Source: an uncultured bacterium
Lineage (GTDB): Bacteria > Bacillota > Clostridia > Lachnospirales > Lachnospiraceae
Length of the DNA stretch: 51,979 nt
Direction of reading: 5' to 3'
Assembly (NCBI GenBank): GCA_947063875.1
Contig: CAMSTY010000022.1
Span: forward strand, 1-51,979
Shown here: in pieces, positions 32,242 through 46,821 of the stretch
Numbering within the stretch: the stretch's first letter is position 1
Layout: every line of letters starts with the position of its first letter
Translations under genes and position numbers: made by a program
The notes under the pieces: generated by a model
Seen by the model: only the letters and a program-made list of their open reading frames with translations
Database searches by the model: none
What the model was told of the DNA's origin: nothing

Positions 32242-32409
32242 AGCGTCTCCGGAAATGCGAAATTATTACAATATATTGGGAAAAGCAGGGTGGTAGAACA
32301 TGGAACTTTGCCTTGCCAGGTGGAAGATGGGGGTATGGGAGGCGGGGGGTGGGGTGAGGTATTTGAATGAGGAAAAAGACAAAATACGACAATAATTGAC
32401 AAAATATTC

Positions 32410-32437
32410 TTGCAACGTGATGTTTTTTCGGTATAAT
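32410..32437 (+). promoter_or_regulatory. Promoter of the zinc-ribbon module operon
   Basis: TTGCAA (32410-32415), 16 nt, TATAAT (32432-32437), 41 nt before the first start. The -10 is perfect. Confidence 0.65.
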
Positions 32438-32477
32438 ATTACGTAAGAAAATATCTTGAAGGATGTGGGATGGCAGT

Positions 32478-33527
32478 ATGCTTGTATATCGTTGTATTGT
32501 TTGTGGATGTATTATGTATGTGGGAGGAAGCTTTTCTTCCATGCTTTGTGAACATTGCGGTGTGGTGGCGGCTATTCCACCTGATCTGGAAAAGTACGGA
32601 GATTTTTATAACGAGGCGACTTATTTCCGGCAGAAAGGAAATTATGAGAAGGCGTTGGAAATTTATGATAAACTTCTGTCGGAAGATAGAGAAGCAGCGG
32701 AAGCCTATTTTGGGAGGATGCTGTGTCGCTATGGCGTAAAATATAAAAAGGATCAGGAACAGGAGCGTTGGCGTCCGGATTGTTATCTGTCACAGAATAC
32801 GCCGATCCGTGAAGACGCGGATTATCTGAAAGCGCTGGGGTTTGCCGGTGAACGGGCACGGCATATATACAGAAAATTTGCAGAACAGATTGACTTTGTG
32901 TGGCAGAAAAAGACAAAACCTGATGAGGGAATTATCGGAGAGGTTTCAGATGAACTGCCGGTTACAGGAGAATTTCTTTTTTTCTGCAGGTTAAGTGAAA
33001 GCCAGCTGGAAACGTTTGAAAGGTCTTTGCGGCTTGGGTCAGAACGTGAAAAGAAAGACCTTTATTTTGTACATAAAAGCAGCTGTGTGGATGATAACGT
33101 TGAGATAGGAGAAGGCACGCAAATCGGCCGCTTCTGCCATATCCAGAGAGGGGCTAGGATCGGCAGAAACTGTGTGTTAGGGCAGAATGTCAATATCTCT
33201 TATAATGTACAGATCGGGGATTGTGTGGAGATTCAGAATAATGTGACCATCTGCGAAGGAGTGGAGCTGGAGGATGAGGTGTTTTGCGGGTTGTCCTGTG
33301 TATTTACCAATGAACGGATTCCCCGTGCGGGACATTCGGGCGAGTCAAAGGTATACCGGGAGACGCTGGTGAAACGGGGAGCAAGTATAGGTGCGAATGC
33401 AACGATTATCTGTGGAAACACCATAGGAGAGTATGCCTTGGTAGGGGCTGGGGCTGTGGTGACAAAAAATGTGCCGAATCACACGCTGGTGATGGGAGTG
33501 CCGGCGCGGGTGGTTCGGAGAATTTAA
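32478..33527 (+). CDS. Zinc-ribbon/helical module fused to a hexapeptide-repeat acetyltransferase
   Basis: The 349-residue protein has a zinc ribbon with C6-x2-C9 and C24-x2-C27, a helical TPR-like section (about 44-150; '[25 protein letters not shown]', '[14 protein letters not shown]'), then '[19 protein letters not shown]'. From about residue 205 it is a left-handed beta-helix: repeated '[26 protein letters not shown]', ending '[28 protein letters not shown]', as in sugar N-acetyltransferases of the WbbJ/WbpD group. ATG 32478 matches the starts of the two paralogues. The first 150 residues are shared with the next two genes. The fusion of a ribbon/TPR module to an acyltransferase is unusual; substrate unknown. 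Confidence 0.85.
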
Positions 33528-33581
33528 AAACAGGAAGAGGAAAATGGACAGAATTTCAGGGAATGAAGGGGAGAGAAAGGA

Positions 33582-35024
33582 ATGAGTGTGCGCATATTGC
33601 GTTGTGCTGTCTGTGGGGTTGGGGTGGAGGCAGATACAGAATTTTCCGTGGCGAAGTGCGGATATTGTGGTTCTGCAATTGCGGTGCCATGCAGATGTGA
33701 GCAAAAAGGGGAACGTTATGACATGGCTCATTATCTGCGCCAGAGCGGAGACTTTCCGGCTGCTGAGGGAGTTTATGATAAACTGCTTCGGGAAGGCGGA
33801 GAGGATGCGGAGGCATATTTTGGGCGTGCCCTGAGCCGTTATGGGGTGCGGTATCAGAGAAATCCGATCTCTCTAAAATGGGAGCCGGATTGCAGCCAGT
33901 GGAGGCAAAGGCCGATTCTGCAGGAGCCGGATTATCTCTGTGCCATGGAGCTGGCAGATGCCCTGACTCGGGCTGTGTACCGCCAGATGGGAGAGCAGAT
34001 TGATCAGAGATGGCAGATAAACCCGGTTGCTGACGGAGGGAAAATCCTGTTGTTTTACAGACCAGACCAGTCGGGATTGGAAAGTTTTGAGAGACGTCTG
34101 TGGGAAAAGAAGAATGACGGCAGAGAGTCCAAAGAAAATATTCTGATGGCAGACGGAAACAGTTCCTGGGTTCTGGGAAGCAAAATTAAGCGGCAGGATA
34201 TCCGCCGGATCTGCTTTTTTGCAAGTCTGGCCGAAAAGCCGGCAGACAGCTGGGATGTCTCAGCAAAAAAAGATGAAAGCGTGATAGCCTGGGTAAAACC
34301 AGATGAAGAAAAGTATGAACTGTATGTGGCGGCAGAAGGGAAAATCCGGGCCAACAGGAATTGTTACGGGCTTTTTCGAGGGTATACCTGTCTGGAAGAA
34401 ATTTGTTTCAATCACTGTTTTCAGACCTTTGGTGTGGCGAATATGGCATTTATGTTTGGGGACTGCAAGGCGTTGCGCAGGGTGGATGTGGGAGAGTTTG
34501 ATACTTCTCAGGTAACAGATATGTCGGGGATGTTTACGGGGTGTAAGAATCTCTCTGAATTGGATGTCAGTGATTTTGAGACTATCCGGGTGACGAATAT
34601 GTCCTGCATGTTTGATGGCTGCAGTGGACTGGTTAAGCTTGATGTCCGGAATCTGGAGACCTTTCAGGTTGTGAATATGTCCTGTATGTTCAACGGCTGC
34701 AGCAGTCTGACAAAACTGGATATCCGGGATTTTGACACGTTTCAGGTGACGGACATGTCCTGTATGTTTAACGGTTGTAGTAATCTTTTAAAGCTTGATG
34801 TCCGGAATTTTGATACTTCCCAGGTAAGGGATATGTCTTATATGTTTTATGGCTGCACCAGTCTTTTGAAACTGGATGTGAGCGGTTTTTGTACTAGCCA
34901 GGTGGAGGATATGCGGGGGATGTTTTATAATTGCATCAGTCTGTTTTGTTTGGATATCCAAGGATTTGACAAGTCTAATGTGAAGGAAGATACCCTGATG
35001 CTGGCAGGGACGCGGTGGGGATAA
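33582..35024 (+). CDS. Zinc-ribbon/helical module fused to DUF285 leucine-rich repeats
   Basis: The 480-residue protein starts with a zinc ribbon (C8, C11, C26, C29) and the same helical module as its upstream neighbour: 'AHYLRQSGDFPAAEGVYDKLLREG', 'AYFGRALSRYGVRYQRNP'. A middle linker has 'ILLFYRPDQSGLESFERRLW'. Residues about 285-470 are seven 26-residue repeats of the form MSxMFxGCxxLxxLDVxxFDTxQVTD, the DUF285/BspA-like LRR family often found on bacterial surface proteins. There is no signal peptide, so it is probably cytoplasmic. GGGGAG is 9 nt ahead of the ATG. Confidence 0.85.
   Translation: MSVRILRCAVCGVGVEADTEFSVAKCGYCGSAIAVPCRCEQKGERYDMAHYLRQSGDFPAAEGVYDKLLREGGEDAEAYFGRALSRYGVRYQRNPISLKWEPDCSQWRQRPILQEPDYLCAMELADALTRAVYRQMGEQIDQRWQINPVADGGKILLFYRPDQSGLESFERRLWEKKNDGRESKENILMADGNSSWVLGSKIKRQDIRRICFFASLAEKPADSWDVSAKKDESVIAWVKPDEEKYELYVAAEGKIRANRNCYGLFRGYTCLEEICFNHCFQTFGVANMAFMFGDCKALRRVDVGEFDTSQVTDMSGMFTGCKNLSELDVSDFETIRVTNMSCMFDGCSGLVKLDVRNLETFQVVNMSCMFNGCSSLTKLDIRDFDTFQVTDMSCMFNGCSNLLKLDVRNFDTSQVRDMSYMFYGCTSLLKLDVSGFCTSQVEDMRGMFYNCISLFCLDIQGFDKSNVKEDTLMLAGTRWG
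34443..34988 (+). repeat. 78-bp tandem repeats encoding DUF285 units
   Basis: Seven units of 78 nt (26 residues) begin at ATG codons at 34443, 34521, 34599, 34677 and so on. Units are diverged in sequence but identical in length, so the array is held by protein structure and not by recent slippage. Confidence 0.8.
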
Positions 35025-35049
35025 GGAAGATGGAAATGGATGAACGATT

Positions 35050-35992
35050 ATGAAGATTACGTTTTGTTGCATGATCTGTGGCTTTGAAATACAGGCGGAT
35101 ACCAGCATGTCAAAAATCCGGTGTAATTGCTGCAAGGCAGAGATTGCAGTTCCCTACAGGCCGGCAGAGAAAAGGTATGATGAGGTGACTTTTTATCGTC
35201 GGGAAGGGGATTTTCAGATGGGAAGAGCCATCTGTGAAGAAATTCTTCGGGAATACAGTAAGGATGTGGAAGCACATTTCGGGAGGCTTCTGTGCCGTTA
35301 TGGAATTTAATATAAAAGAAATCCGGCATCTATGGAATGGGAACCTCAATGTGCATTCCCGATGCAGGAAGCGGATACTTTTCTGCTATCGGCCAAATGA
35401 GCATCAGCTGGAATGTCTGGAAAGGGAGCTGCTTGGGTTCAAAGAGGCGGACGTGAATGGGAATGCGGATAAGAAGGCGGACGCGAATGAGAAGACAGAC
35501 GCAGGCAGGAAGGCAGATGTGGATAGGAAGGCGGGTGCAGACAAGAAGGCAGATGTGAACAAGACAACAGATACAGATGAAAGGAAAGAGGCGAAAAAAG
35601 AAACAGATGCGGAGGAAAAGACGCTATTGTCCGAAACAGATAAGGTGAAGCTTGCTGTACTGGAGAAAAGAGAAGATTCAAAAAGCTATTCAGAAACTGC
35701 AGTCCGATTGGCTGGCATGGGAACAGCGAAACAGAAATATTTATAGAGTCATAGCAGTTTTTTTTGTTTGCCTTTGCTGTGATTATTTTCACGGTATTAT
35801 TAACGGCGGGAGAATTTTCGGCTGGAATATTTGGTGCAGGAACTTATATCATTGCTTTTTCTGGGTGTTTTGGCTTTCTCAGCACTTCTGCCGGCGAGAA
35901 GTATTTGTATGAAAACAACATAAAAAAAGGAGAAAGGACTGGAAAAGATTGAGGAGGAGATACGGCAGATAAAGAAGAAAAGTGGCAATTAA
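35050..35992 (+). pseudogene. Eroded third paralogue: zinc-ribbon/helical module with lysine-rich linker and membrane tail
   Basis: The first 86 codons encode the shared module: zinc-ribbon 'CCMICGFEIQAD' and 'CNCCKAE', then 'AHFGRLLCRYGI', which hits TAA at 35308. Translation past the stop reads 'YKRNPASMEWEPQC', clearly homologous to the neighbour. Another frame then gives 'RILFCYRPNEHQLECLEREL' and a Lys/Asp/Ala-rich repeat (KKADANEKTDAG...). A third frame gives 'KLQSDWLAWEQRNRNIYRVIAVF'. After a T8 run a fourth gives the hydrophobic 'FAFAVIIFTVLLTAGEFSAGIF', and the end 'GLEKIEEEIRQIKKKSGN' is in yet another. At least one stop, one deletion and three frameshifts. Confidence 0.75.
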
Positions 35993-36130
35993 GATAAGGG
36001 ATCGGCCTGGTGTATTTCCGGTTTCTTCAGCGGGGATTTTGAGAAGAATCAGGACAAAAGAAAGAAGGATAAAAAAGGGGATGAAAAAACAAAAAAATTA
36101 AAACGGACGGTATCATCTATAAAAAATTCA

Positions 36131-36139
36131 TGGTATAAT
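36131..36139 (+). promoter_or_regulatory. Extended -10 promoter of the long operon
   Basis: TGGTATAAT at 36131-36139 is an extended -10 element (TGn-TATAAT), 65 nt before the first gene. No good -35 was found, which extended -10 promoters can do without. Confidence 0.55.
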
Positions 36140-36203
36140 TAAACAATATGTTGGTATACAGGCGTGTTTCCAGCATTGTCATTATAAACTCCGGAGAAAA
36201 GAC

Positions 36204-38108
36204 ATGAGAAAATTTGATTCAGAAGCAGGGTTGTGCCATCTGGTATTTGCCAATGAGGATACTTATTACACGAAAAGCCTTTTTAAATTGAATCTGCGCC
36301 AGTATTTGTATTATGAACTGCGTGGGAAGGAATATGACGCAGTTTATTTTATTTCTGGAGATGAAAGCGGATATGATCTGGTGGCGGCGGACGATAATTC
36401 GCTGGAGATTTATGAAAAATATGAAAAACAGAGTATCCTGGACTTTTTCAAAGGCAAGGGCGCAAGCCGTTTTAGAGCCGGTCAGAAAATAGAAGTGGAA
36501 GCTTATGACCAGCTGCTTTTGAAGATGATCCAGATGATGAAAAAGGAAAAAGAGGCAAAGCTGGCATTTGTCTTTACGATTGAGGCATTCAGTGACATCG
36601 CAAGGTTTCCGGATATCGTTTCTGCTGTCTGCAGGTTGTCGGAGAAAAATTACAGCCGGGGACATCTCATCCTGATTCAGGCGCCGGTGGTGGCTAATGG
36701 GAGCCTGAATTATCTGGCGGATGAAGAGGGGGTTTTCCGGTCAGAATTGTTTCCGGAGATCCAAAGGATTTTTGAGTCTCATAAAAATATAAAGGTCTAT
36801 GAATGCCTGAAGGAGGAACTGGGACAGAGGGTCAGTTTTTTAAATGCTTTGGAGAGGGAGCAGATCCACAATATGGTTTCCCGCTTCCTGATGGAGCAAT
36901 CTCCCGGACGGAGAGAAGCATTTGCCAAGGCCTGCGATTACGGGGATTTTATCTGGGGCTGGTATCATTCTTCGGGATTTCGGGAGAAGGCAGGCGCGCT
37001 TTTGCCGGAAAACGGAAAGCGTCTGATGAGCCGGATACGGAGTAGCCTGACAGATAAGTCGATTTTGGGAAAACTGGATGTGCAGATTGAAAGGATTCGC
37101 CAGGGTATGGGAAAGCAGATTTCTCTGGACAGATGGATTGCGAAGAACTATTCTTTGGATTCCTGGCTGCGGCTGATCTATGAAGACAATATGCTATTGT
37201 CCCGGCTGGAGCAGCTTTCTCTTACAAAGGTTCTGGAGAAAGCGGAAAGTTTTTCCGCAGATATGATGAAAGAAAAGTTAAAACGAATTCGGGAAGATCT
37301 TCAGAAACCGGGGCTTTTTTTTATGGATTCCCAGGCAGAGGAGTATACAAAGCGTTGTATGGATGCCATGAGAAGGGCGTGTTTGCGGGAAGATGTGGTG
37401 ACGATGGAGAAAGCAGTTTCTGCCTTGGAGTATGGAGTGTGTCCGTCCATTGCGGAAGGACAGGAGTCAGAGGAGCAGGGCGATACGCGCAGACAGCTGT
37501 ACCAGGAGGCGATCTGGGCGGCAGAGACACTTTATGATATGACACAGGCCTATGAACAGGATTGCAAACGGATTCGGGAATATGGCAGCCGGATGAAGGG
37601 CTGCATGCAGGAGCTGCGCGACTTTGAAGAACGAAACCCTCAGGTAGTGTGGGAAGAAAAGCATTTTAACGGACAGGATGGAGGCTCCCCAGGACTTCAG
37701 ACTGTGGCTGCCAAAAAGTCTGAGATTATTGCTCTTAAAAACGATATCCGCAATCTTAAATATCTGCGGGCATCTAAGCAGACTATGATGAGCCGGTGCC
37801 GGGAAAATATTCAGAAGCTGGAGATGGCCATCAGCAGTATGGCGGTAGGGAATGTTAGTCATTTAAAAGAGACGATGGATTATACCTCCAGCCTGATCCG
37901 CAGTGCGTCCCAGGAGAATCAGCAGCTGATGGCAGAACTGTCTGAGACATCTCAGGAAAGTCAGATTCAACTGGAAAATGCCGGTATGAAGGAGTGGATG
38001 TCCGCAGAAGGATGGGCAGAATTGGAACGGGAATTTGAAGCGCTGCAGAAGGAACAGGGAACGTATCAGGGGGAAATCGGAGAGGAGGAATTGCTGGCCA
38101 ATGGTTAA
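36204..38108 (+). CDS. Large helical protein, first gene of the ESCRT-like operon
   Basis: I do not recognise this 634-residue protein. The first 230 residues look globular alpha/beta: 'KLAFVFTIEAFSDIARFPDIVSAVCRLSEKN' resembles a Walker B strand and helix, followed by 'GHLILIQAPVVANGSLNYL'. No P-loop is present, so at most it is an inactive AAA-like domain. Residues 290-630 are helical with coiled-coil stretches ('QELRDFEERNPQVVWEEKH', 'ALKNDIRNLKYLRASKQTMMSRCRENIQKLEMAI'). GGAG is 7 nt before the ATG. Its stop overlaps the start of the Hsp70-like gene by 8 nt, so the two are coupled. Confidence 0.8.
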   Translation: MRKFDSEAGLCHLVFANEDTYYTKSLFKLNLRQYLYYELRGKEYDAVYFISGDESGYDLVAADDNSLEIYEKYEKQSILDFFKGKGASRFRAGQKIEVEAYDQLLLKMIQMMKKEKEAKLAFVFTIEAFSDIARFPDIVSAVCRLSEKNYSRGHLILIQAPVVANGSLNYLADEEGVFRSELFPEIQRIFESHKNIKVYECLKEELGQRVSFLNALEREQIHNMVSRFLMEQSPGRREAFAKACDYGDFIWGWYHSSGFREKAGALLPENGKRLMSRIRSSLTDKSILGKLDVQIERIRQGMGKQISLDRWIAKNYSLDSWLRLIYEDNMLLSRLEQLSLTKVLEKAESFSADMMKEKLKRIREDLQKPGLFFMDSQAEEYTKRCMDAMRRACLREDVVTMEKAVSALEYGVCPSIAEGQESEEQGDTRRQLYQEAIWAAETLYDMTQAYEQDCKRIREYGSRMKGCMQELRDFEERNPQVVWEEKHFNGQDGGSPGLQTVAAKKSEIIALKNDIRNLKYLRASKQTMMSRCRENIQKLEMAISSMAVGNVSHLKETMDYTSSLIRSASQENQQLMAELSETSQESQIQLENAGMKEWMSAEGWAELEREFEALQKEQGTYQGEIGEEELLANG

Positions 38109-39798
38109 TATCGGAATGGATTTTGGGAGCACTTACACTACGGTTTCAGTGTATAAACAGGAAAGCCGCATGCTGGAAGCACTGAGCCTGAGCCAGGGTA
38201 TGCCATATATCCCTTCGGTTGTCTCCGTGGGAAAAGGACCGATGGAGTTCGGTATGGCTGCTAAAACACAGACCGGAAAAAAGGGGGTTACTGTATTCAA
38301 GGCGTTTAAGATGATGCTTACGGAGTCGGAGCCGGAAAAGCTGAAGGCAAGGGGATTCGATGAGAATAATACTCCGGAGCAGATTGCCAGAGAGTTCATC
38401 GGAGCAGTGTTAAGACAGGTTCTGGCAGATATGCATGAGGACCGGATCGGAACATTGGTAGTAGGCGTACCGGAGGTCTGGAGCGATGGGATCGGGACTC
38501 TTGATGGCAGGACGATTGTGCGGGATATCTGCAGAAGCCTGGATTTTGTGGAGCAAGTGAAGGTGGTCAGTGAGCCGGCGGCTGCCAGCGCTTTCTTTGT
38601 ACATAATTTTAATACCAGTACAGGAAAAGACTTTGAGGGGAATATCCTGCTAGTGGATTATGGCGGCGGAACCTTGGATATCACACTCACCGAGGTGTCC
38701 GCGGGAAAAGAAAACGGAGAGAACAGCTTTGCGGAGATTAAGGTACTGGAACGGACGGGCGCCGGTGAGAACGTGGAAGGAGAAGTGGGGAAAGCCGGGA
38801 TTATCTACATGGAGACCGTGGTATCGCGGGCGATTGAAAATTCGGATATTCTGGGCGGAAAGAAGCCGGAACGTGATGGGAAATACTTTCGGGCGGTGGA
38901 CTCCCTGGAACTAGATCTCCAAACCGGAACCAAACGGATCCGGGACATGTTTGAGGAATATGGCCTTGATGATATTGATGGACTGTACGACGAAGAATTT
39001 ACCACGATCGAGTATAAGGGAGAAGATGTGGAGATTTCCTATGGCCTTCTTCTGGAAGTATACAATGATACGATTCGTGATATTTTTAACGAAAAGCTGG
39101 AAGAAATGATTCAGTTTATGCAGAGGGCGAATATCCGGTATATGGATGGCGGCCAGGACACATTTAAGATAGCCCTGGTAGGAGGTTTCGGCAATTTTTA
39201 TCTGGTAAAGAAGCAGATTGAGGACAAATTCCGTTTTAGCCTCTATGATAAACGGCGGGAGAATATCATTTTAAATAAGGCAGACTGCGAGCGGGCGATT
39301 TCTCTGGGCGCGGCCCTGCTGGCTGCCGGTGTCATCGGAATCCGCAATACTGCGGCCTATTCCATTGGGGTATGGGCTTATGATATCAACAAAAAAGTCT
39401 GCCTGAATTATGCGATTCGTTACAAGCAGGATATTGAGTTTCACAAGGTATATTATGCAAGAGGGAGTGTGGACAATGAGATTTTTGTGATTCAGGCGAT
39501 TTCGGGAGGTTTTGATAAATTCCTGGTGAATTTCGGCCATGATGACAGGACGGCCTGTTTTGCACTGGCAAAAGAGGAATTTGCCAAAAAACTGGCAAAT
39601 GTGGTGAAGAACCAGTACCACACCGCCGTTGTGGGATTTTCTATTGATCCGTCAGGGGTGGTCAGCATCCATGTTCATGATTACGATGTCTTAAAAGGAG
39701 TGATTGGAGAGGAGGATCATGAGGTGGAACTGACGAAATTCGGCGATTTGTTTGAGGTGACCTATGCGGGACAGCCTTTCGCAGACAGCAAAAAATAG
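38101..39798 (+). CDS. Hsp70/actin-fold ATPase
   Basis: The 565-residue protein has the actin/Hsp70 nucleotide motifs in order: phosphate 1 'IGMDFGSTYTTVSVYK' (4-19), connect/phosphate 2 'ILLVDYGGGTLDITLTEV' near 182-199, and the adenosine motif 'IALVGGFGNFYLVKKQI' near 358. 'VSEPAAASAFF' near 159 is the Hsp70 'EPxAAA' block. A 120-residue C-terminal extension (after 'YSIGVWAYDINKK') has beta character but is not a standard DnaK peptide-binding domain. ATG 38101 is in the GATGGTTAA overlap with the previous gene. It likely acts as a chaperone-like partner of the operon's other proteins. Confidence 0.9.
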   Translation: MVNIGMDFGSTYTTVSVYKQESRMLEALSLSQGMPYIPSVVSVGKGPMEFGMAAKTQTGKKGVTVFKAFKMMLTESEPEKLKARGFDENNTPEQIAREFIGAVLRQVLADMHEDRIGTLVVGVPEVWSDGIGTLDGRTIVRDICRSLDFVEQVKVVSEPAAASAFFVHNFNTSTGKDFEGNILLVDYGGGTLDITLTEVSAGKENGENSFAEIKVLERTGAGENVEGEVGKAGIIYMETVVSRAIENSDILGGKKPERDGKYFRAVDSLELDLQTGTKRIRDMFEEYGLDDIDGLYDEEFTTIEYKGEDVEISYGLLLEVYNDTIRDIFNEKLEEMIQFMQRANIRYMDGGQDTFKIALVGGFGNFYLVKKQIEDKFRFSLYDKRRENIILNKADCERAISLGAALLAAGVIGIRNTAAYSIGVWAYDINKKVCLNYAIRYKQDIEFHKVYYARGSVDNEIFVIQAISGGFDKFLVNFGHDDRTACFALAKEEFAKKLANVVKNQYHTAVVGFSIDPSGVVSIHVHDYDVLKGVIGEEDHEVELTKFGDLFEVTYAGQPFADSKK

Positions 39799-39824
39799 CA
39801 TCGGAAAAGGGATGGGAGACGGCA

Positions 39825-41159
39825 ATGAGATTTGACAGGATGAACACGACGATGGAAGCGTTGACTGCCCGTCAGGATTTTACTATGACGGATGTGCTGA
39901 ATGCTTTTTATGATCTGTGTGCGGATATCAAGGATGCCAGGGGAAGCACGGTTGACAAGCTTCCGGCCGGCGATGAGGATGTGGCGGTAACCAGGCTCTG
40001 CTGGATGGGCCGGACCTTTTTGCGTATGGCGGGACAGATTCCGGCAGATTCCGTGGAAGAGGAAAAGAATCAAAGGCTTCAAAAGGTGATTCGGGAACTG
40101 GAAAAGAGCGAATCAGAACTGGGAGCGGCAGAACAGAGAATCCGGGAACTAGAGAAGCAGCAAAAAGGCATGCAGGCCCAAAAGGCAGAATTGGCGGGAA
40201 GCCTGAAACGGGAAGCGGCCTTAAAACAGGAGTGCGATAGGCTGAAGGAGGAACTGGAAAGCTATAAAGAGTTGGAGATACCAGGTTTTCTGGCCAGAAA
40301 GGAGACTTTAAAGAAAGAACTGATAAAAATAAAAGACAGCCGTGATGAAGAAGAACAGCTTTGCGAGCAGTTGGAGAGGGAACTGGGGGAATCCAAAAGA
40401 GAGAAAGAACAGTCAGACAGACGGCTGGAGGACATAAGAAAACAGAAGGAAGCGGTGGAAAAACAGCTTGCCCAGACGGAGGAGAAATACAAGGAATTGA
40501 GAGAACGGGTTCAGCATTCGGATACCTTAAGACGCAGCCTTTTGGAGAAGATTGATATGCTTGAGAAAACCCTCGGATGTAAAGATACGGAAAATCTGCT
40601 TTCGTTGTATGAGGAGAAGAAACAGGAGGCGCAGGTCCGCAGAAAAGAATATCAGCAGCTGCAAGAGAAAGTACAGGAAAAGGAAGAGGAACTGGTGCGG
40701 CTGAAGGAGGATATGGTCGGGAAGAACAAATACATTCAGGAACTGGCCTGGCAGGAAGAAAATGAAAAAAAGAACGCGGAACTGGCGCTGAAAGAACTGC
40801 AGAAACGAATTGAGGACGCGCGCAGTAAAAAAAGGGATTTGCAGGTCCAGGTGCAGAATCAGGAAGAAGAAGCCGAAAGTCTGGAGGAGTGGTTCAAGAG
40901 CCTGGAAGCAGAGGCTTACGAGAAACGTTTGAAGGCCAGCGGTGCGCAGCTTGAGGTAATGCAGAAGGCCAGAGATTCTTTGGAAGAAGAATTGTCTGTT
41001 TTGTCTGGCATTGTGTCAAAGGAAGAGAGGGAAGAATTGTTCCGGTATCAGAAATATTTCCGGGATACCATGGACAATCTGGAGAGGGATCTGGAGCAGT
41101 ATCAGAAGTGTTACTGTACAGTAATGAAAGTATTTGAAAACGGGGGAAATGGCTTATGA
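39825..41159 (+). CDS. Long coiled-coil protein
   Basis: The 444-residue protein has a short globular N-terminus (1-75: 'MNTTMEALTARQDFTMTDVLNAFYDLCADIKDARG', like the co-chaperone GrpE-type N-termini but unproven). Residues 80-420 are an almost continuous coiled coil ('LQKVIRELEKSESELGAAEQRIRELEKQQKG'), with dense E/K/Q heptads. There is a proline break near 160. ATG 39825 follows GGGAG. The last four bases (ATGA, 41156-41159) are shared with the next gene. A structural or scaffolding role beside the Hsp70-like ATPase is inferred. Confidence 0.82.
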   Translation: MRFDRMNTTMEALTARQDFTMTDVLNAFYDLCADIKDARGSTVDKLPAGDEDVAVTRLCWMGRTFLRMAGQIPADSVEEEKNQRLQKVIRELEKSESELGAAEQRIRELEKQQKGMQAQKAELAGSLKREAALKQECDRLKEELESYKELEIPGFLARKETLKKELIKIKDSRDEEEQLCEQLERELGESKREKEQSDRRLEDIRKQKEAVEKQLAQTEEKYKELRERVQHSDTLRRSLLEKIDMLEKTLGCKDTENLLSLYEEKKQEAQVRRKEYQQLQEKVQEKEEELVRLKEDMVGKNKYIQELAWQEENEKKNAELALKELQKRIEDARSKKRDLQVQVQNQEEEAESLEEWFKSLEAEAYEKRLKASGAQLEVMQKARDSLEEELSVLSGIVSKEEREELFRYQKYFRDTMDNLERDLEQYQKCYCTVMKVFENGGNGL

Positions 41160-41635
41160 TCTGTTATGCTTGCCAATCAAAGATGGAAGAAGGAAGAGCG
41201 AAGTGCCCAGTCTGCGGATTTCCGGTAATCCAGAGTGTGGAGGGAAACGCCGATGAGATTGAGAGAATCCGGCAGATGGCGAAGGAGTATATGAGGCAAA
41301 GAACGAGTGGGATGACAGGAGATAATTTTGTGAATTATCTGAACAGGGATCAGAGGAATTCCAGAACCAGAACAAACAGCTGGAGAACACATAAAGACTG
41401 GGCTAATGGGCGAAAAAGCTATTCTGGCAGAAAGAAAAAAATTGCAAAGAACCGCAAAGAAGTGTTTGAAAATGGAGGAAATGGCCTATGATCTGTTATG
41501 CTTGCCAATCAAAGATGGAGGAGGGAAGAGCGAAGTGCCCAATCTGCGGATTTCCGGTAATCCAGAGTGTGGAGGGAAACACAGTTGAGATTGAAGGGGT
41601 TCGGCAGATGGCGAAGGAATATATGAAGCAATGGC
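41131..41635 (+). repeat. Tandem duplication, period 332 nt
   Basis: About 170 nt at 41131-41303 recur at 41463-41635 with only scattered changes. The unit spans the 3' end of the coiled-coil gene and the 5' end of the zinc-ribbon gene, including the ATGA junction. Confidence 0.85.
41156..41491 (+). CDS. Zinc-ribbon protein, copy 1 of a duplication, probably degraded
   Basis: The 111-residue frame starts MICYACQSKMEEGRAKCPVC, a zinc ribbon with C-x2-C-x10-C-x2-C, nearly identical to the first 50 residues of the next gene. After about residue 50 it becomes basic and low in order ('RNSRTRTNSWRTHKDWANGRKSYSGRKKK'), unlike the next protein. It ends 'KEVFENGGNGL', which is the same as the end of the coiled-coil gene. 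It was created by a duplication with a period of 332 nt. ATGA overlaps couple it to both neighbours. Functional status doubtful. Confidence 0.6.
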   Translation: MICYACQSKMEEGRAKCPVCGFPVIQSVEGNADEIERIRQMAKEYMRQRTSGMTGDNFVNYLNRDQRNSRTRTNSWRTHKDWANGRKSYSGRKKKIAKNRKEVFENGGNGL

Positions 41636-41997
41636 TGGGCGGAGCTGTGATCGGAATTGCTTCCTACAGTTATGTGGTGGAGAATCATAAACTGAAACAG
41701 GATAACATTGCAGACATAGATCTGGCTAAGGCAGATGAACTTGTGGTAGGGGAACCGCTGTGGAGCGACATTGATTTTACAAAGGTTGATGATCAGGGAA
41801 TGATTACAGTCAATGCGTTCATGAAAAAAGACGGTATCCGTTACGCTTATGAATTGCAGGCAAGGCTTCCGTCGAATACCGGCGCCTGCCATGTCGGAGT
41901 TTTGCTGATGGAGGGATTAAAAGCGCGGCTGGTACTGGGAAATAAGGAAAGCCATACATATTCCCAGCCGTTTTCCTTGGTAGTGTATCATGGATAG
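41488..41997 (+). CDS. Zinc-ribbon protein with beta-rich C-terminal domain
   Basis: The 169-residue protein has a zinc ribbon at 3-23 (MICYACQSKMEEGRAKCPIC), a short helical/hydrophobic segment 'YMKQWLGGAVIGIASYSYVV' (about 45-64) and a C-terminal domain with beta pattern ('DQGMITVNAFMKKDGIRYAYELQARLPSN', 'ACHVGVLLMEGLKARLVLGN'). I do not recognise the latter. Its start overlaps the preceding stop (ATGA). It is the intact member of the duplicated pair. Confidence 0.75.
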   Translation: MICYACQSKMEEGRAKCPICGFPVIQSVEGNTVEIEGVRQMAKEYMKQWLGGAVIGIASYSYVVENHKLKQDNIADIDLAKADELVVGEPLWSDIDFTKVDDQGMITVNAFMKKDGIRYAYELQARLPSNTGACHVGVLLMEGLKARLVLGNKESHTYSQPFSLVVYHG

Positions 41998-42009
41998 GAG
42001 GTGGTGGGA

Positions 42010-42486
42010 ATGAAACGGCCTGTGCGTCACTCGGTAGATTTGAATCTGCGCTTTGCCCAGCCGCGTTCGTCATATCGGCCAGGGCCGCTATCTGGGATTG
42101 CGGCTTTTTTGATGTTTCTGGGAGGGATTCTGGTATGGTTTTTCCTGTTTTCACTGGATGGATGGGTCAGTCGGAAGATCTTTCAGGTAGAGCTGGTGGT
42201 TAATGTGATATTGCTGGCTGCGAATGTTTTTGCAATATGCAGGATTGGATATGATGGTTTTGTGAGAAACACATCCGTCACGCTGGTATTTAATCTGCTT
42301 TTGGCAGTTATTGGTTTTTACCTTGCCGGGGTTCATATTTTGCCGGTCCCTGCCGGCGGTATGGAATGGGCGTTTAAGGCAGCAGAATTTTTTGTGTTTT
42401 TTGTGCTGGCCATATTGATGTCTATGGTGCCGACGCTGGTCATATGCCTGGTCATGTGGCTGATTATGGCAGTTTTTGGAGGCTAG
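42010..42486 (+). CDS. Four-helix integral membrane protein
   Basis: The 158-residue protein has a polar, arginine-rich N-terminus (1-30) and four membrane helices at about 32-54, 68-90, 94-116 and 125-155 ('FFVFFVLAILMSMVPTLVICLVMWLIMAVF'). ATG 42010 is 8 nt after AGGAGG; a GTG at 42001 is too close to it. No family was recognised. It is the only intact membrane protein of the operon and may be the anchor for the soluble components. Confidence 0.75.
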   Translation: MKRPVRHSVDLNLRFAQPRSSYRPGPLSGIAAFLMFLGGILVWFFLFSLDGWVSRKIFQVELVVNVILLAANVFAICRIGYDGFVRNTSVTLVFNLLLAVIGFYLAGVHILPVPAGGMEWAFKAAEFFVFFVLAILMSMVPTLVICLVMWLIMAVFGG

Positions 42487-42530
42487 TGTACTGACTCATT
42501 TGGCGAAATGTAAATGAGTCAGTACACTAG
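42483..42530. repeat. Perfect 19-bp hairpin inside the operon
   Basis: CTAGTGTACTGACTCATTT (42483-42501) and its exact complement (42512-42530) enclose a 10-nt loop. The left arm contains the stop codon of the membrane-protein gene. No T run follows, so it is not a classical terminator. It may be an RNA processing or stability element that separates the two halves of the operon. Confidence 0.85.
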
Positions 42531-42583
42531 AGCGCGTTTGCAATAGATGTATATAACAGGGAATGGGAAAGAGAGGAAAAAAG

Positions 42584-43696
42584 ATGGGTGTATTAGATAA
42601 GGTCAAAAGCGCATGGAAAGGGGAAAAAGAAGAACTGGTGACTCCCTCTGAGGAGAAAAAACAGGCGGCGGCGATCCGCGAGGCTTCGGAAACCTTGACA
42701 GGAGCCATGCAGGCATTGATATTGTCAGATGGCACAGGGCGGATTCCCAAGGAGGCTATTGATAATTATAAGATGGTAATCCGTGGACTGGTGAACCGGT
42801 TGGATCGGGCTTCGGTCTCCCTTCTGGACACCCGCAGCCTGGATAAAAGCATGGTTCATCTGACACAGCATTTGGATATAGCAGTAAGAGACGGCAGACA
42901 GGATACGGCAGACCGGATTCTCAAAGCGTTGATTTACGGAGTGGGAAAAGGACATGAACAAGTTCCTTCCGGTGACTGGGAACGTGTGGAAGAAATTATG
43001 GAGGAGCGGGAAAAAAGACTGGGCCAATACAGGACTATTGTTGAGTATTCAGAAAAGGTTGACGAGAGGCGGCGAAGCATTGAGCAGCAGCAGATCCAAC
43101 ACGAAAAAGTAAAGAAAGATTTTGAAAAGGCGAGAAAGAAGGTACTCGAAGAGGCAGAAAGGAATCCCCATCTGGTAGAGATGATCAATCAGTATGGAGA
43201 CAGTGTGAAAGATATTCATGTAGATGCCTACAATCTGGTTGTAAAACAGAAGGAGGTTGTAAAACTCTACAATAATCTGAAGGCTTTGAAGCAGCAGATG
43301 GCAATGAACGAAACCACGATCGTATCCTGCAATCAGATTATCCGGAGTGAGGAGAATGCCCTTACGGAGATGGCTCAGAAAGTGGAACAGGAGATGATTG
43401 ACGATGTGATCCGGCATGAGGCGGAGTTCAGGAATCATCTGGTGGATCTGCAAAGACAGATTGGGAAGCTGGAGGAACTGAGCGACCGGTTTGGGGATGC
43501 GATTGCAGAGATTTTCTCTTCCCCGATTATGGGTGATTATATTATCAACACCATCCTGCAATATGAGGAGATGGAGAAGGAAATAAAGCGGGAAGAAGAG
43601 GGTTGTAAGGAAGGTATGAGGTTGATGCAGGAACGGCAGCAGGAAGCAATGAATGAGGAATCGGTAATAGAGAATTCTCGGATGATTCATAATTAA
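42584..43696 (+). CDS. Helical coiled-coil protein, 370 residues, possible ESCRT-III/PspA-like
   Basis: The protein begins MGVLDKVKSAWKGEKEE, an amphipathic helix similar in character to those at the start of PspA/Vipp1 proteins. It is almost fully helical. Strong coiled coils cover about 135-210 ('ERVEEIMEEREKRLGQYRTIVEYSEKVDERRRSIEQQQIQHEK') and 215-330. ATG 42584 follows AGGAA; an in-frame ATG 21 nt earlier is less well placed. It lies directly before the ESCRT-III-like gene. Homology to PspA or ESCRT-III is a suggestion based on composition and helix pattern only. Confidence 0.75.
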   Translation: MGVLDKVKSAWKGEKEELVTPSEEKKQAAAIREASETLTGAMQALILSDGTGRIPKEAIDNYKMVIRGLVNRLDRASVSLLDTRSLDKSMVHLTQHLDIAVRDGRQDTADRILKALIYGVGKGHEQVPSGDWERVEEIMEEREKRLGQYRTIVEYSEKVDERRRSIEQQQIQHEKVKKDFEKARKKVLEEAERNPHLVEMINQYGDSVKDIHVDAYNLVVKQKEVVKLYNNLKALKQQMAMNETTIVSCNQIIRSEENALTEMAQKVEQEMIDDVIRHEAEFRNHLVDLQRQIGKLEELSDRFGDAIAEIFSSPIMGDYIINTILQYEEMEKEIKREEEGCKEGMRLMQERQQEAMNEESVIENSRMIHN

Positions 43697-43711
43697 AGGG
43701 AGGATACAGTG

Positions 43712-44338
43712 ATGAAAAAGGAACCATTATTTCCCAAAAAGGAAAAACCGGATGTGGATCATCTGATCACAGAGGCGGGGGTGCGCCTGAGAGGGCTGCA
43801 GAGGAAATACCGTGTGATTATCGAACGGGAACTGCGGGCGCTGCGGCATAGCAGAACACAGAAGAGGGACAATCCCAAGGCTGTTACTAATCTGAAAAAT
43901 GCTTATTACTCTCTGGCAATCATCAGCAGGGCCCAGGAGCGTCTGCGGGAGATTACGTCTTTTCAGGAATTGTGCAAGGCGATGAATGAGATGGGGTCAG
44001 TATTAAAGCTTATGAACCGGATTTCCGGTAAGACAGAAAAGGTGAAAGTCAACAAGCTGAATGCCGGTATCCGCAAACTGGACAAGGCGGCAGAGCGGGA
44101 TGAGGGCGGCATGCAGAATATGTTCCAGCAGCCTCTGGATGCACTGGTGGAGGATGAGATTATCGAACGTCTGCTAAAAGGGGAAAGTGTGGATTCCTGC
44201 CTTGATATGGAGGACGGAATCCTCATGGATATGGAAGAAGTCCTGCCTTTTGGCGAGAGTTTTGTCAGGGAATCTGGTGAAGAATTGGATCTGGATCAGA
44301 GCATGGCAGATATTGATGAACTGATGCGGAATCTGTAG
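43712..44338 (+). CDS. Candidate ESCRT-III (Snf7-like) protein
   Basis: The 208-residue protein is helical and basic at the N-terminus ('LRGLQRKYRVIIERELRALRHSRTQKRD', 27-53). Residues 55-115 read 'KAVTNLKNAYYSLAIISRAQERLREITSFQELCKAMNEMGSVLKLMNR', the spacing seen in Snf7 helices 2-3 ('A..LK....L..I..Q...L......EV..AMK.A...LK'). An acidic C-terminal part follows (145-208) and ends 'DLDQSMADIDELMRNL', resembling the MIM1 helix by which ESCRT-III binds the Vps4 MIT domain. Total length and charge flip (basic to acidic) fit the family. GGAGGA lies 7-8 nt before ATG 43712. The next gene is a Vps4-like ATPase. Inference, not a proven homologue. Confidence 0.6.
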   Translation: MKKEPLFPKKEKPDVDHLITEAGVRLRGLQRKYRVIIERELRALRHSRTQKRDNPKAVTNLKNAYYSLAIISRAQERLREITSFQELCKAMNEMGSVLKLMNRISGKTEKVKVNKLNAGIRKLDKAAERDEGGMQNMFQQPLDALVEDEIIERLLKGESVDSCLDMEDGILMDMEEVLPFGESFVRESGEELDLDQSMADIDELMRNL

Positions 44339-44354
44339 AGTGGGGAGCAGAGGG

Positions 44355-45644
44355 ATGGATAGCTATATTGAGAAAATGCAGGCAAGAGAGAATCTCTGCC
44401 TGGCTTATATGAAAAAGGCGGATGACACTCTGGCTGCAAACGGGAATCTGCCGTCCAAGGATGAGTGCATTTATCTGCAGAAGGCGGCCAGCCTGCGTTA
44501 TGAGATGGCGCAGATGAGCGTAGGGGAGGAACGGCTGTATCAGCAGAGAAAAGTTCAGGAACTGAATCAGAGAATCAAAAATATTGTGCGTGTTATCAAT
44601 CCGGAGCGGTTTAAGGAAATTCAGGAAAATGAGGCTCGGGCGCGGTCAGAAAAAGGCGGAAAGGATTCGTCATTAGGAAAGAATGCGGCTTCAGGGAATA
44701 AAGGTGTGGGGAATTCGGCGGCAAAGCAGCAGAATTCCTTTGAGCCACCAGTGGAGAACTGGTTTAAGGAGGCGCCGAAACATTCTTTTGCTGATGTATC
44801 TGGCATGAATGAGTTAAAGGAACAGTTAAAGGAATGCATTGCTGATTCTCAGCTGAACCGGCTGAAGGATTTCCTGAAGATGAAAAAACTACATTCTTAT
44901 TTTTTTATCGGGCCGCCGGGATGTGGCAAGACTTATATTATCGAGGCATTTGCCCATGAACTGATGGATCAGAATTACAAATATCTTTCTCTGACTGGTT
45001 CCGATATTCTTAGCCGGTTTGTGGGAGAGGCGGAAAAAATTATCACAAGACTGTTCGAGGAGGCGGAAAAAAATGCGCCTTGCATCGTGTTTATCGACGA
45101 GGTGGACGGAGTGTGTAAAAACCGTTCACAGCCTTTGCTGCCGGAGTATGCCGCTTCTTTGACTACTGCATTTCTGACAGGGTATAACCGGATCAATAGT
45201 TCCGATCAGCCGATTATTTTTATTGGAGCCACCAACTATCCGAATCAGGTGGATAATGCTATGCTGGACCGGGTGGAATTGGTACGCGTACCATTTCCGG
45301 ATGCTGAGGCCAGGACATTTTCTTTCGAGAACCATTTTTCTTCTATTATTCATCTGGAAGAGGGGTATGGCTTTGCGGATATGGCATCTTGTACGGATAC
45401 TTACAATTATCGTGATATCCAGCGGCTGGTGTCCAGAATCAAGACAATGGTGTTAAAAGACGTAATGCAGATTTACAGGAATGAGGATCTGGCGCTGGAG
45501 GCGCTTAAGGACGGAAGATACCGGCTGACCAGAGAGATGTTTGAGCAGGCCAAGGAGAACTGCCTTCCTACGCCGAAGGAAGACATTATCCGGGAATTGG
45601 ATGAGTGGGAAGAGAAATTCAAGAGAAATATGGATGAAGTATAA
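44355..45644 (+). CDS. AAA+ ATPase of the Vps4/spastin type with MIT-like N-terminus
   Basis: The 429-residue protein has an N-terminal three-helix bundle (5-80: 'ARENLCLAYMKKADDTLAANG...LQKAASLRYEMA...LYQQRKVQELNQRIKNIV') like an MIT domain, a flexible linker (95-140), and one AAA+ module. 'FADVSGMNELKEQLKE' is the Vps4-clade pre-motif, Walker A is GPPGCGKT (186-193, K192), Walker B is 'IVFIDEVDG' (D248, E249), sensor 1 'GATNYP' holds N294, and 'NAMLDRVELVRVPFPDAEAR' follows. R306 may be the arginine finger; the usual tandem arginine pair before 'TTAFLTGY' is missing. C-terminal helices end 'DELEEWEEKFKRNMDEV'-like. It would disassemble an ESCRT-III-like polymer. Confidence 0.8.
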   Translation: MDSYIEKMQARENLCLAYMKKADDTLAANGNLPSKDECIYLQKAASLRYEMAQMSVGEERLYQQRKVQELNQRIKNIVRVINPERFKEIQENEARARSEKGGKDSSLGKNAASGNKGVGNSAAKQQNSFEPPVENWFKEAPKHSFADVSGMNELKEQLKECIADSQLNRLKDFLKMKKLHSYFFIGPPGCGKTYIIEAFAHELMDQNYKYLSLTGSDILSRFVGEAEKIITRLFEEAEKNAPCIVFIDEVDGVCKNRSQPLLPEYAASLTTAFLTGYNRINSSDQPIIFIGATNYPNQVDNAMLDRVELVRVPFPDAEARTFSFENHFSSIIHLEEGYGFADMASCTDTYNYRDIQRLVSRIKTMVLKDVMQIYRNEDLALEALKDGRYRLTREMFEQAKENCLPTPKEDIIRELDEWEEKFKRNMDEV

Positions 45645-45657
45645 GGAATGGTGAGAG

Positions 45658-46635
45658 ATGGGGAAATGGCTGGAATCTTACAAGGGATTTGTGCCTTCTT
45701 ATGGCCTGGATGCCTTATATGGGTGTGAATACTGGAAAACTTTGTTTCAGGGATGCATTCCGCAGGAGCATCTGGATGCCCGATTTCGGGTGCCCAGGAG
45801 TCATGCCTTTTTGCTGTACGGACCGGCGGGGAACGGAAAAAGCACTCTGGCGCATGCTTTTGCCAAGGAACTTTCTGACGTGGGATATTCGTTTATCCAT
45901 GTTCCTGGGATGGTTTTGGCAGAAACGCCGGGGGGGATCGAGGAACTTTTTGAGGAGATTCTTTCGGAGGCTGATACGCAGGATGCCAGAGGGGTTTGCC
46001 TGTTGTTGGAGTGGTTGGAAGTACTGGCTGGTCAGGAAGAAGCCATGTGGGTTCTGAACCAGTATATTTGTACATTGAAGGAGAGGGAGATTCCCTGTAT
46101 TATCTTGGTGATAGTGGAAGAGTTTTCTGACGTTCATCCATTTTTGGAGAAAGTGATGATTCCTTGTCAGATCAGGCTTCCGGATAAAAGGGAAAGGAAG
46201 ACCTGTATAGAACAGATGTTTGGAGATGAGATTTTACTGGCGCCAGGATTGAAGTATAAGGACATGGCAGAGATGACAGAAGGATTCAGTTATGGAAGGC
46301 TTTGTGACCTGCTGCGAGTGGTCCGTATATTTTTAAAGCAGAAGGCGAGGCGGTTCTCCGGCGGTGACGGAAAGCGGCTGGAGGAGATGCTGCGGCAGGG
46401 TTATGTGATTCTTACAGAGGAGATGTTTGCGGACATTGTAAATCAGCTGAAGCCACGGTCGGCCGTGGTAGAGAATGTCCCCGTTCCTGACGTATCGGCG
46501 ATGGTTTCGGCTGTTTCTGTGGCGCAGAATCCGCAGCCGGTGATGGATAATATGGCGGATGTTATGACAGGGTTTATGAAGGAAGAGAAAGACTTTATCA
46601 GTAGTATGATGGATCTGGATTTGAATGATCTTTAA
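45658..46635 (+). CDS. Second AAA+-like ATPase with degenerate Walker B
   Basis: The 325-residue protein has Walker A GPAGNGKS at 55-62 (K61) and a general AAA fold ('SHAFLLYGPAGNGKSTLAHAFAKELSD'). Where Walker B should be, it reads 'GVCLLLEWLEVLAGQ', with L and W replacing the usual D-E pair; E118 is the only acidic residue. The sensor region 'IPCIILVIVEEFSDVHPF' lacks the usual asparagine. It may bind but not hydrolyse ATP. The tail ends 'EEKDFISSMMDLDLNDL', echoing the acidic end of the ESCRT-III-like protein, and could bind the MIT-like domain. It is the last gene of the operon, before a terminator. Confidence 0.72.
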   Translation: MGKWLESYKGFVPSYGLDALYGCEYWKTLFQGCIPQEHLDARFRVPRSHAFLLYGPAGNGKSTLAHAFAKELSDVGYSFIHVPGMVLAETPGGIEELFEEILSEADTQDARGVCLLLEWLEVLAGQEEAMWVLNQYICTLKEREIPCIILVIVEEFSDVHPFLEKVMIPCQIRLPDKRERKTCIEQMFGDEILLAPGLKYKDMAEMTEGFSYGRLCDLLRVVRIFLKQKARRFSGGDGKRLEEMLRQGYVILTEEMFADIVNQLKPRSAVVENVPVPDVSAMVSAVSVAQNPQPVMDNMADVMTGFMKEEKDFISSMMDLDLNDL

Positions 46636-46650
46636 TAAGAATGCTCCGGG

Positions 46651-46675
46651 AAAACGCGCTGTTAGCGCGTTTTTT
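46651..46675 (+). terminator. Terminator of the ESCRT-like operon
   Basis: AAAACGCGCT (46651-46660), GTT loop, AGCGCGTTTT (46664-46673) then T. A textbook rho-independent terminator 16 nt after the last stop. Confidence 0.92.
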
Positions 46676-46724
46676 CAGTACGGGCGTAAGATGATGCAAA
46701 AGCTGTCAGCAATGGGGTTTCTGG

Positions 46725-46753
46725 TTGTCAATAGAGTGAGAATCGATTATAAT
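46725..46753 (+). promoter_or_regulatory. Promoter of the DUF554 gene
   Basis: TTGTCA (46725-46730), 17 nt, TATAAT (46748-46753). Both boxes are good, 69 nt before the start. Confidence 0.7.
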
Positions 46754-46821
46754 AACAAATAGCAGGAAATAGCAGAACCTGATACCAACTCATGATACTA
46801 AAGAGTAAAGGGGGCAAAACA

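Follow-up and report, generated by a model that had tools for sequence, protein, structure and literature searches.

The window, by which we mean the whole 51,979-nucleotide stretch of DNA analysed here, is contig C22 (CAMSTY010000022.1) of a 3.49-Mb genome from an uncultured member of the Lachnospiraceae (assembly GCA_947063875.1), and it carries a gene module of gut bacteria that resembles the pair formed by ESCRT-III (endosomal sorting complex required for transport III), whose proteins cut membranes in human cells, and the Vps4 ATPase that drives them. At 42584-46635 of the forward strand, a first-pass annotation had described four adjacent co-directional genes, and all four open reading frames (ORFs) are present as it stated. 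The first, g6 (42584-43696, with an alternative in-frame ATG at 42563), encodes a 370-residue helical or coiled-coil protein and lies directly 5' of g7 (43712-44338, GTG start possible at 43709), which encodes a 208-residue ESCRT-III-like helical protein with a MIM1-like terminal helix. These are followed by g8 (44355-45644, GTG start possible at 44340), encoding a 429-residue Vps4-like classic AAA ATPase with an N-terminal helical domain of ~84 residues that is putatively MIT-like, and by g9 (45658-46635), encoding a 325-residue degenerate (pseudo-)AAA protein with an acidic tail; the gaps from stop codon to likely start among the four genes are 13-16 bp. The module is real, conserved and horizontally spread and pairs an ESCRT-III-like protein with a Vps4-like motor; the four genes first noticed are only the end of a larger island (~32.3-46.8 kb). 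We judge it fairly probable that the module is a bacterial ESCRT-III/Vps4-like machine.

A g8 search of 299 genomes of the family returned the window's own genome and five others with E 4.8e-31 or better, at 77, 66, 42, 31 and 28% identity (a count that leaves out three further matches, at 2e-26 to 6e-26, in longer frames). In all five, a gene for a protein of 207-228 residues lies directly 5' of the AAA gene and is itself preceded by a longer coiled-coil-like gene, and an Hsp70-like protein and a protein of ~470-630 residues (G1) are also encoded; coiled-coil, zinc-ribbon, membrane and g9 genes were seen in some of the five, not all. Because the Hsp70-like protein was the best conserved of five families aligned over six loci (mean column identity 58%), it was chosen as the query for a contig scan, which found 149 relatives on contigs titled as Lachnospiraceae, Oscillospiraceae and other Clostridia. 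The locus set comprises 80 of these together with the window (81 loci). An iterated g7 profile identified 75 copies in 66 of the 81 loci, and an AAA gene lies 3' of g7 in 62 of the 66, though in L078 this is no more than a weak 24-bit fragment where the contig ends; the sequence of the remaining four stops within 365 bases. This adjacency was counted solely inside Hsp70-drawn loci, but as the search used a gene other than g7 and g8 it was not built into the way the loci were collected. A lack of conserved gene order had been set beforehand as a refuting result; the g6-g7-g8 order was instead found in many genomes, a recurrence that is a pattern beyond chance.

The distribution of the module is patchy, with g8 in 6 of the 299 family genomes. 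A g7 search matched only the window's own genome among 99 relatives (1/99) and among 391 genomes of the class (1/391), and single-sequence g7 and g6 searches on plasmids found no relative beyond that genome. Both g7 and g8 occur in records titled Hominifimenecus microfluidus CLA-AA-H215 (L096) and Anaeromassilibacillus sp. An172 (L083). Eight loci (L018, L019, L021, L022, L024, L034, L064 and L068) carry a tandem g7 pair; the paralogues have distinct N-termini (in L018, MKKGPLFPKK and MFGRAKPDP) and recall composite ESCRT-III polymers.

The comparisons that follow use an alignment of 72 of the 75 g7 copies (A6; fragments from L039 and L078 (two) omitted) and alignments of 56 of the 59 g8 sequences (A7 and A8; L025, L087 and L096 omitted, their starts being uncertain). 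The g7 protein of the window has a charge of +14 in its first 55% and -17 in the rest, and ends in MADIDELMRNL. A basic N-terminal half with an acidic C-terminal half is found in 71 of 72 g7 proteins, whereas 24 of 145 background ORFs have it. At the terminus, 48 of 72 show a MIM1-like hydrophobic pattern in relaxed form (shuffled mean 8.3, maximum 15), compared with 32 of 145 in the background. The background set may still contain some g7 copies, and this control is the stricter for it. The consensus of MIM1 is (D/E)xxLxxRLxxL(K/R), and the C-termini of g7 in L051 and L058 read LRERLNRF and that in L052 LRSRLNNL. An AlphaFold2 model of g7 (mean predicted local distance difference test score, pLDDT, 68.8; predicted template modelling score 0.64) places helices at residues 15-49, 55-80, 84-108 and 113-127, and a terminal helix at 194-207. 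In length and order these predicted helices suit the ESCRT-III arrangement of an alpha1-alpha2 hairpin, short helices and a C-terminal helix; this compatibility is no proof.

The relationship between g7 and ESCRT-III was examined by profile-profile comparison. Our ESCRT-III reference profile consists of ten sequences, nine typed by hand and one copied, of which seven were supported by a check. Aligned against it with hhalign, the g7 profile reached 69.8% (E 4.2e-5) with insert columns kept, compared with 0.2-0.3% for reversed controls, and, once restricted to match columns, 86.6% (E 4.5e-6, score 42.8) over 112 collinear columns. The 300 block shuffles all scored below 37, the maximum being 33.9 versus the 42.8 observed. 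Three disjoint g7 subsets of 22, 47 and 3 sequences gave 80.5%, 73.7% and 49.4%, with reversed controls at or below 0.5%, and the L051-type subset matched A-type ESCRT-III at 79.9% (E 1.4e-5) at the tail, in the MIM1 region. Single templates were also ranked, comprising the 10 ESCRT-III sequences and their reverses, 71 helical decoys (with the eight g7 copies among them left out of the ranking), 60 of 109 coiled coils and 20 of 32 PspA sequences. The best were VPS2 (36.1), CHMP6 (27.6), a coiled coil (24.5), fly CHMP4 (24.1) and CHMP2A (22.8), so that ESCRT-III supplies four of the five. When an ESCRT-III hidden Markov model (HMM) was run with filters off on 9,307 ORFs, the top match was an L051-type g7, over its full length (E 2.6e-4; best reversed ORF E 1.3), and jackknives of the model kept L051-type g7 first in 10 of 10 (E 5e-5 to 6e-3). 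These controlled comparisons support a significant remote similarity of g7 to ESCRT-III of the Snf7/CHMP type. Judged on sequence profiles, membership of g7 in ESCRT-III is supported but not closed.

Several results weigh against this assignment. The basic N-terminal part, acidic C-terminal part and MIM1-like tail described in the first-pass annotation held, whereas the strict eukaryotic MIM1 pattern occurs in 0 of 72 g7 proteins. The AlphaFold2 model is only fair (most of residues 105-138 fall below pLDDT 50), and 6 of the 10 ESCRT-III single templates score inside the decoy range. With default filters the ESCRT-III HMM returned two ORFs only, the better being g7 at E 1.5; without filters its top 100 held 16 g7 proteins versus 11 for reversed ORFs, and we rejected this count as evidence, the reversed ORFs being nearly equal. 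The Snf7 homology anticipated at first pass did not appear in Pfam, where Snf7 (PF03357) is absent from the best 25 of 93 families for the 72 g7 members, and therefore no member has Snf7 at E<=0.02, although a poorer single match might lie beyond the families listed. Nor was Snf7 found at E<=10 in three L051-type g7 proteins, and on six module genomes the Snf7 model matched nothing on g7; one chance-level match (E 3) falls in the coiled-coil gene of G230. This miss is weak evidence, because the same model passed its cut-off in 0 of 14 control genomes, Sulfolobus acidocaldarius included. Searches of Protein Data Bank sequences with the g7 profile (A6; hmmsearch), the L051 g7 (phmmer) and A8 found no ESCRT or MIT chain, and direct Pfam, NCBIfam and PADLOC scans gave no Snf7 or MIT among the matches listed. 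No Pfam or NCBIfam family passed its cut-off on g6 or g7, and a PADLOC HerA match on g7 (21 bits) is weak and was taken as chance. In addition, L051-type g7 matches other g7 at only 13.6%, profile methods easily give false matches for helical proteins, and the ESCRT-III reference set has few sequences, most of them typed by hand. The first-pass proposal of an ESCRT-III-like gene beside an AAA gene is supported in part: profile-profile similarity, charge, tail and linkage speak for it, and no Snf7 or MIT was among the Pfam families listed.

The putative motor, g8, matches Pfam AAA at 2.5e-30 and the NCBIfam models CDC48 (120 bits) and CdvC (113 bits), both below cut-off, and its profile aligns with Vps4/CdvC over the AAA region at E 1.2e-48 in hhalign. 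All 56 aligned g8 proteins keep the lysine of Walker A and the aspartate of Walker B; the arginine finger is present in 55 and the pore-loop aromatic in 51, and the catalytic residue is glutamate in 53 and aspartate in the other 3. The best single-domain matches of the g8 profile are human VPS4B (207 bits), yeast Vps4 (193), the D2 domain of an archaeal VCP-like protein (192) and Cdc48 D2 (182), followed by CdvC (170) and katanin and spastin (160 each, rounded). Against a closer assignment, the window g8 alone ranks Cdc48 chains first (177.8 bits in two stretches; VPS4B 116.5), and a 28-row tree, with a small and mostly typed reference set, puts 17 g8 proteins on one side of a branch (100/97), separate from the Vps4/katanin/spastin/CdvC group and from Cdc48. 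Given this ranking and placement, g8 is Vps4-like and orthology to Vps4 is not established. Vps4_C (PF09336) is absent among the best 25 of 32 families for the window g8.

The N-terminal 84 residues of g8 are MIT-like in length, position and helix pattern as judged by eye, and the alignment is in register. The MIT assignment fared less well when searched for directly, MIT (PF04212) being absent from the best 25 of 42 families for the 56 N-domains. Similarity to six MIT domains is likewise not significant, with 13 and 10 of 100 shuffles scoring as high; in a further test the counts were 33 of 200 for the pooled N-domains and 19 of 200 for those of the G745 type (described below); the L051-type N-domain is marginal, at a score of 19.5 where 200 shuffles gave a 95% level of 19.0 and a maximum of 20.5. 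Of the Vps4/spastin-type ATPase with MIT-like bundle that had been predicted, the AAA domain with intact motor residues stands, whereas the protein falls outside the Vps4 group in the 28-row tree and its MIT domain is putative. The second AAA protein with an acidic tail, g9, has a weaker AAA match (7.9e-8). Among 40 g9-like sequences collected 3' of g8, GK[S/T] is present in 6 and a canonical hhhhDE Walker B in 1, most likely L025, whose tail is g8-type. With the Walker motifs lost in most of these sequences, g9 is therefore a pseudo-AAA.

A second bacterial locus bears on the assignment of g7. A class-wide search of 391 genomes with the g8 profile, in which the best four candidates of each genome were scored, yielded one further locus (L147:5773-13301, in the 1.1-Mb genome G745), where a Vps4-like AAA gene lies beside genes for a 197-residue protein (s197), a 211-residue protein and an SPFH/Band-7 zinc-ribbon protein. 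The C-terminus of this AAA protein matches Pfam Vps4_C (PF09336) at E 0.0012 and 19.3 bits, below the cut-off of 21.3. The s197 protein occurs in 6 of 197 genomes of its family, its own included. HMMER searches with ESCRT-III, g7 and PspA models found no match on s197, and the 211-residue protein matched none of the compared profiles. In hhalign the s197 family matched L051-type g7 at 69.1% (E 4.4e-5, 141 columns), ESCRT-III at 32.8% (score 31.0; maximum of 100 shuffles 26.1), the whole g7 family at 28.9% (score 28.1, where shuffles peaked at 22.6) and PspA at 4.8%. Reversed controls stayed below 1%, except for 5.2% versus B-type ESCRT-III, where the forward match was just 0.6%. The union of the g7 and s197 families matched ESCRT-III at 89.9% (E 1.7e-6, columns 2-150 versus 3-147), with 1.0% reversed and 0.5% for PspA. 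At the level of profiles, the s197 family, encoded beside another Vps4-like ATPase, appears to bridge g7 and ESCRT-III.

The island to which the four genes belong was delimited by congener comparison, in which 23 congeners were searched and four examined, and it is absent from three of these four (approximate ends 32300-46800, no strand assigned). In L160, L161 and L162, the gene found at 30.7-32.3 kb of the window sits 141-276 bp from sequence matching the window's right flank, and the match resumes at 46.8 kb in L161 and at 47.6-47.7 kb in L160 and L162; the fourth congener, L163, has ~1.8 kb of other sequence between the flanks. With the flanks joined in three congeners, ~14.5 kb (32.3-46.8 kb) was therefore gained or lost as a unit. 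The G+C content of the island is 45-49%, while the flanks mostly lie at 48-54%, with 41% over the first 2 kb, and no shared stretch of at least 11 bases was found between the two island ends as cut. A phage origin was rejected, with no Hsp70-like relative among viral contigs.

All of the other island genes considered here lie on the forward strand, upstream of g6. They encode a protein with a zinc-ribbon-like start, a TPR-like region and DUF285 (BspA-like) repeats (33582-35024), G1, a 634-residue protein conserved across loci (36204-38108), the Hsp70-like protein that is the best conserved marker of the module (38104-39798; Pfam HSP70 4.7e-12), the coiled-coil protein of the module (39825-41159), a protein with a zinc-ribbon-like start of CxxC pairs (41488-41997; Pfam matches all below cut-off) and a small putative membrane protein whose hydrophobic stretches were judged by eye (42001-42486). 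At 41156-41491 lies a partial N-terminal copy of the zinc-ribbon-like gene 3' of it, with the ~30 first residues nearly the same, perhaps a decayed tandem copy.

Repeat proteins related to that at 33582-35024, with repeats of widely differing kinds (DUF285, MORN, LRR and RCC1) and several with zinc-ribbon-like starts, lie near other module copies (L012:5122-6630, L016:11940-14468, L034:1103-3907, L037:13941-15281, L028:3627-7814 and L031:12273-14150). In the two examined, a kinase domain is fused to RCC1 repeats (L034) and to NPCBM (L031). A BrxL-like ATPase is encoded 3' of g8 in some loci (L065:13309-14826, Pfam BrxL_ATPase 4.5e-115; L090, L093, L094 and L095 by clustering), and a HerA-like ATPase at L060:17343-19289 (with a SWIM zinc finger) and L072:8445-10001; the BrxL-like cluster is found in five loci and the HerA-like cluster in nine. 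L051-type modules encode a protein of 150-171 residues whose end is biotinyl/lipoyl-carrier-like by eye (L015:4285-4791, L016:6793-7248 and L051:7456-7971), and its L016 copy has no Pfam family at E<=0.01.

Against a bacterial ESCRT-III/Vps4-like machine, g7 might instead be a helical protein unrelated to ESCRT-III that serves a Cdc48/katanin-like unfoldase as adaptor or substrate, and the island a chaperone-type complex of Hsp70-like, AAA and coiled-coil proteins for protein quality control or conflict, with no membrane polymer. Such a role would suit an island whose best conserved gene is Hsp70-like, whose other copies lie near repeat proteins, kinase domains and BrxL- and HerA-like genes, and whose proteins show no Snf7 or MIT among the Pfam families listed; g8 forms its own group in the tree, and Cdc48-type D2 domains come near Vps4 as matches of its profile (182-192 versus 193-207 bits) and first with the window g8 alone. 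It does not account for the collinear match of g7 to ESCRT-III, which is lacking in the reversed, shuffled and PspA controls, nor for the two best ESCRT-III single templates outscoring all coiled-coil templates tried, the charge polarity and terminal helix of g7, and the s197 family beside a second Vps4-like AAA gene. We regard it as unlikely, and as highly improbable the suggestion that the ESCRT likeness arose by chance between ordinary coiled-coil genes and an ordinary AAA gene. The first-pass annotation was indeed judged by eye, and helical proteins mislead, yet as regards gene order this explanation is refuted by the conserved adjacency (62 of 66 loci), and it is further opposed by the significance of the g7 match against shuffles and by motor residues intact in the 56 g8 proteins.

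It is also conceivable that g7 is a divergent PspA/Vipp1 protein, belonging to the branch of the superfamily already known from bacteria, and that it gained an AAA ATPase as partner. The end of Vipp1 also forms a MIM1-like helix, which we count in favour of this origin. The window's genome (G000), moreover, has no PspA (PF04012) at E<=1e-10, and 36 of the 146 genomes of the order have one. PspA and Vipp1 are established bacterial members of the ESCRT-III superfamily and constitute its bacterial branch (Liu 2021, PMC8281802). A 32-sequence PspA/Vipp1 profile, however, reached 54.4% with ESCRT-III and just 0.4% with g7, no better than the reversed control (0.6%), and the s197 family likewise matched PspA far less than ESCRT-III (4.8% versus 32.8%). 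Similarity of g7 to PspA is thus undetectable with profiles that detect the accepted ESCRT-III-PspA relationship, and by this comparison the ESCRT-III match of g7 is specific; descent from PspA/Vipp1 seems very unlikely to us. The g6 profile shows no relation to ESCRT-III or PspA (PspA 0.4%, reversed 1.6%), and g6 was rejected as a second ESCRT-III or PspA.

An ESCRT-III/Vps4-like machine in this island would share with the archaeal and eukaryotic systems (Snf7, CHMPs or CdvB with Vps4/CdvC) the occurrence of tandem paralogues, seen for g7 in 8 loci. It differs from them in that g7 similarity is found solely at the profile level, the strict MIM1 pattern is lacking, the MIT domain is putative, g8 is not nested in Vps4 and extra partners are present (Hsp70-like, pseudo-AAA, G1 and zinc-ribbon proteins). 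A 2023 review states that bacteria are without a clear Vps4 homologue (PMC7615534). The available portion of Ravi et al. 2024 (PMC11237479) describes bacterial Vps4-like AAA proteins; for those acquired by transfer, it states that an unrelated TPR/6TM gene has taken the place of snf7. It also places some PspA proteins and some Snf7-clade proteins of bacteria, the latter with a transmembrane segment, close to AAA+ ATPases and proposes ATP-dependent membrane remodelling for them; it further reports that PspA co-occurs with a two-AAA protein and that operons of the Snf7 proteins with a transmembrane segment carry ABC transporter genes. Our loci resemble these in the bacterial Vps4-like AAA protein and in the nearness of an ESCRT-III-like gene to an AAA gene, for which the reading is likewise one of membrane remodelling. 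The general idea is therefore already in print, whereas this island, its Hsp70-like marker and a Clostridia case are not described in that portion. In the HSP70 NTP-dependent conflict systems of Kaur et al. 2020 (PMC7159879), NTPases, zinc ribbons, kinases and repeat proteins similarly accompany a protein of HSP70 type. They differ in that ESCRT, Snf7 and Vps4 are absent from the available text and in that the ten island proteins scanned have no MoxR/vWA or GTPase family over cut-off among the matches listed. A BREX paper (PMC12839542) makes no mention of ESCRT, Hsp70, Vps4 or Snf7 in the text available. Among open-licence papers without supplements, we found none on this island or this pairing, which is no proof of absence.

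Our observations establish how the genes are linked, the profile similarity of g7 with its charge and tail pattern, the catalytic residues kept in g8 and the presence or absence of the island between congeners; we infer the mode of action that follows, from polymerisation, tail binding and a hexameric motor through to membrane action and a biological role. In our proposal, g7 would polymerise on the inner membrane face via its basic core, while its acidic tail would restrain the protein and display the terminal helix. As a hexameric AAA motor, g8 may bind this tail through its N-terminal helical domain, as MIT binds MIM1, and its aromatic pore loop could then pull g7 out with ATP, remodelling the polymer and the underlying membrane. 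With its degenerate nucleotide site, g9 probably sits with g8 as a regulatory partner, and the presumed membrane protein (42001-42486) might anchor the assembly and give it its site. The Hsp70-like, coiled-coil, G1, zinc-ribbon and repeat proteins may sense or regulate. That the island is patchy and acquired, with variable repeat proteins, points to an accessory role in envelope stress or defence.

More generally, we see roughly even chances that bacteria possess true ESCRT systems. Under this proposal, two or more kinds of Clostridia locus, the Hsp70-linked island and the SPFH-linked locus of G745, would carry Snf7/CHMP-type ESCRT-III proteins, some in tandem, with a dedicated Vps4-like motor; they would represent a deep lineage, distinct from PspA and not recently transferred from any known archaea, and the pair would not be confined to archaea and eukaryotes. 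The ESCRT-III/Vps4 partnership is known mainly from archaea and eukaryotes. If the assignment is true, an ESCRT-III-like protein served by its own Vps4-like motor in bacteria would alter the view of the origin and range of this machinery, offer a simple bacterial model for AAA-driven polymer remodelling and allow a direct test of whether bacteria have an ATP-driven ESCRT.

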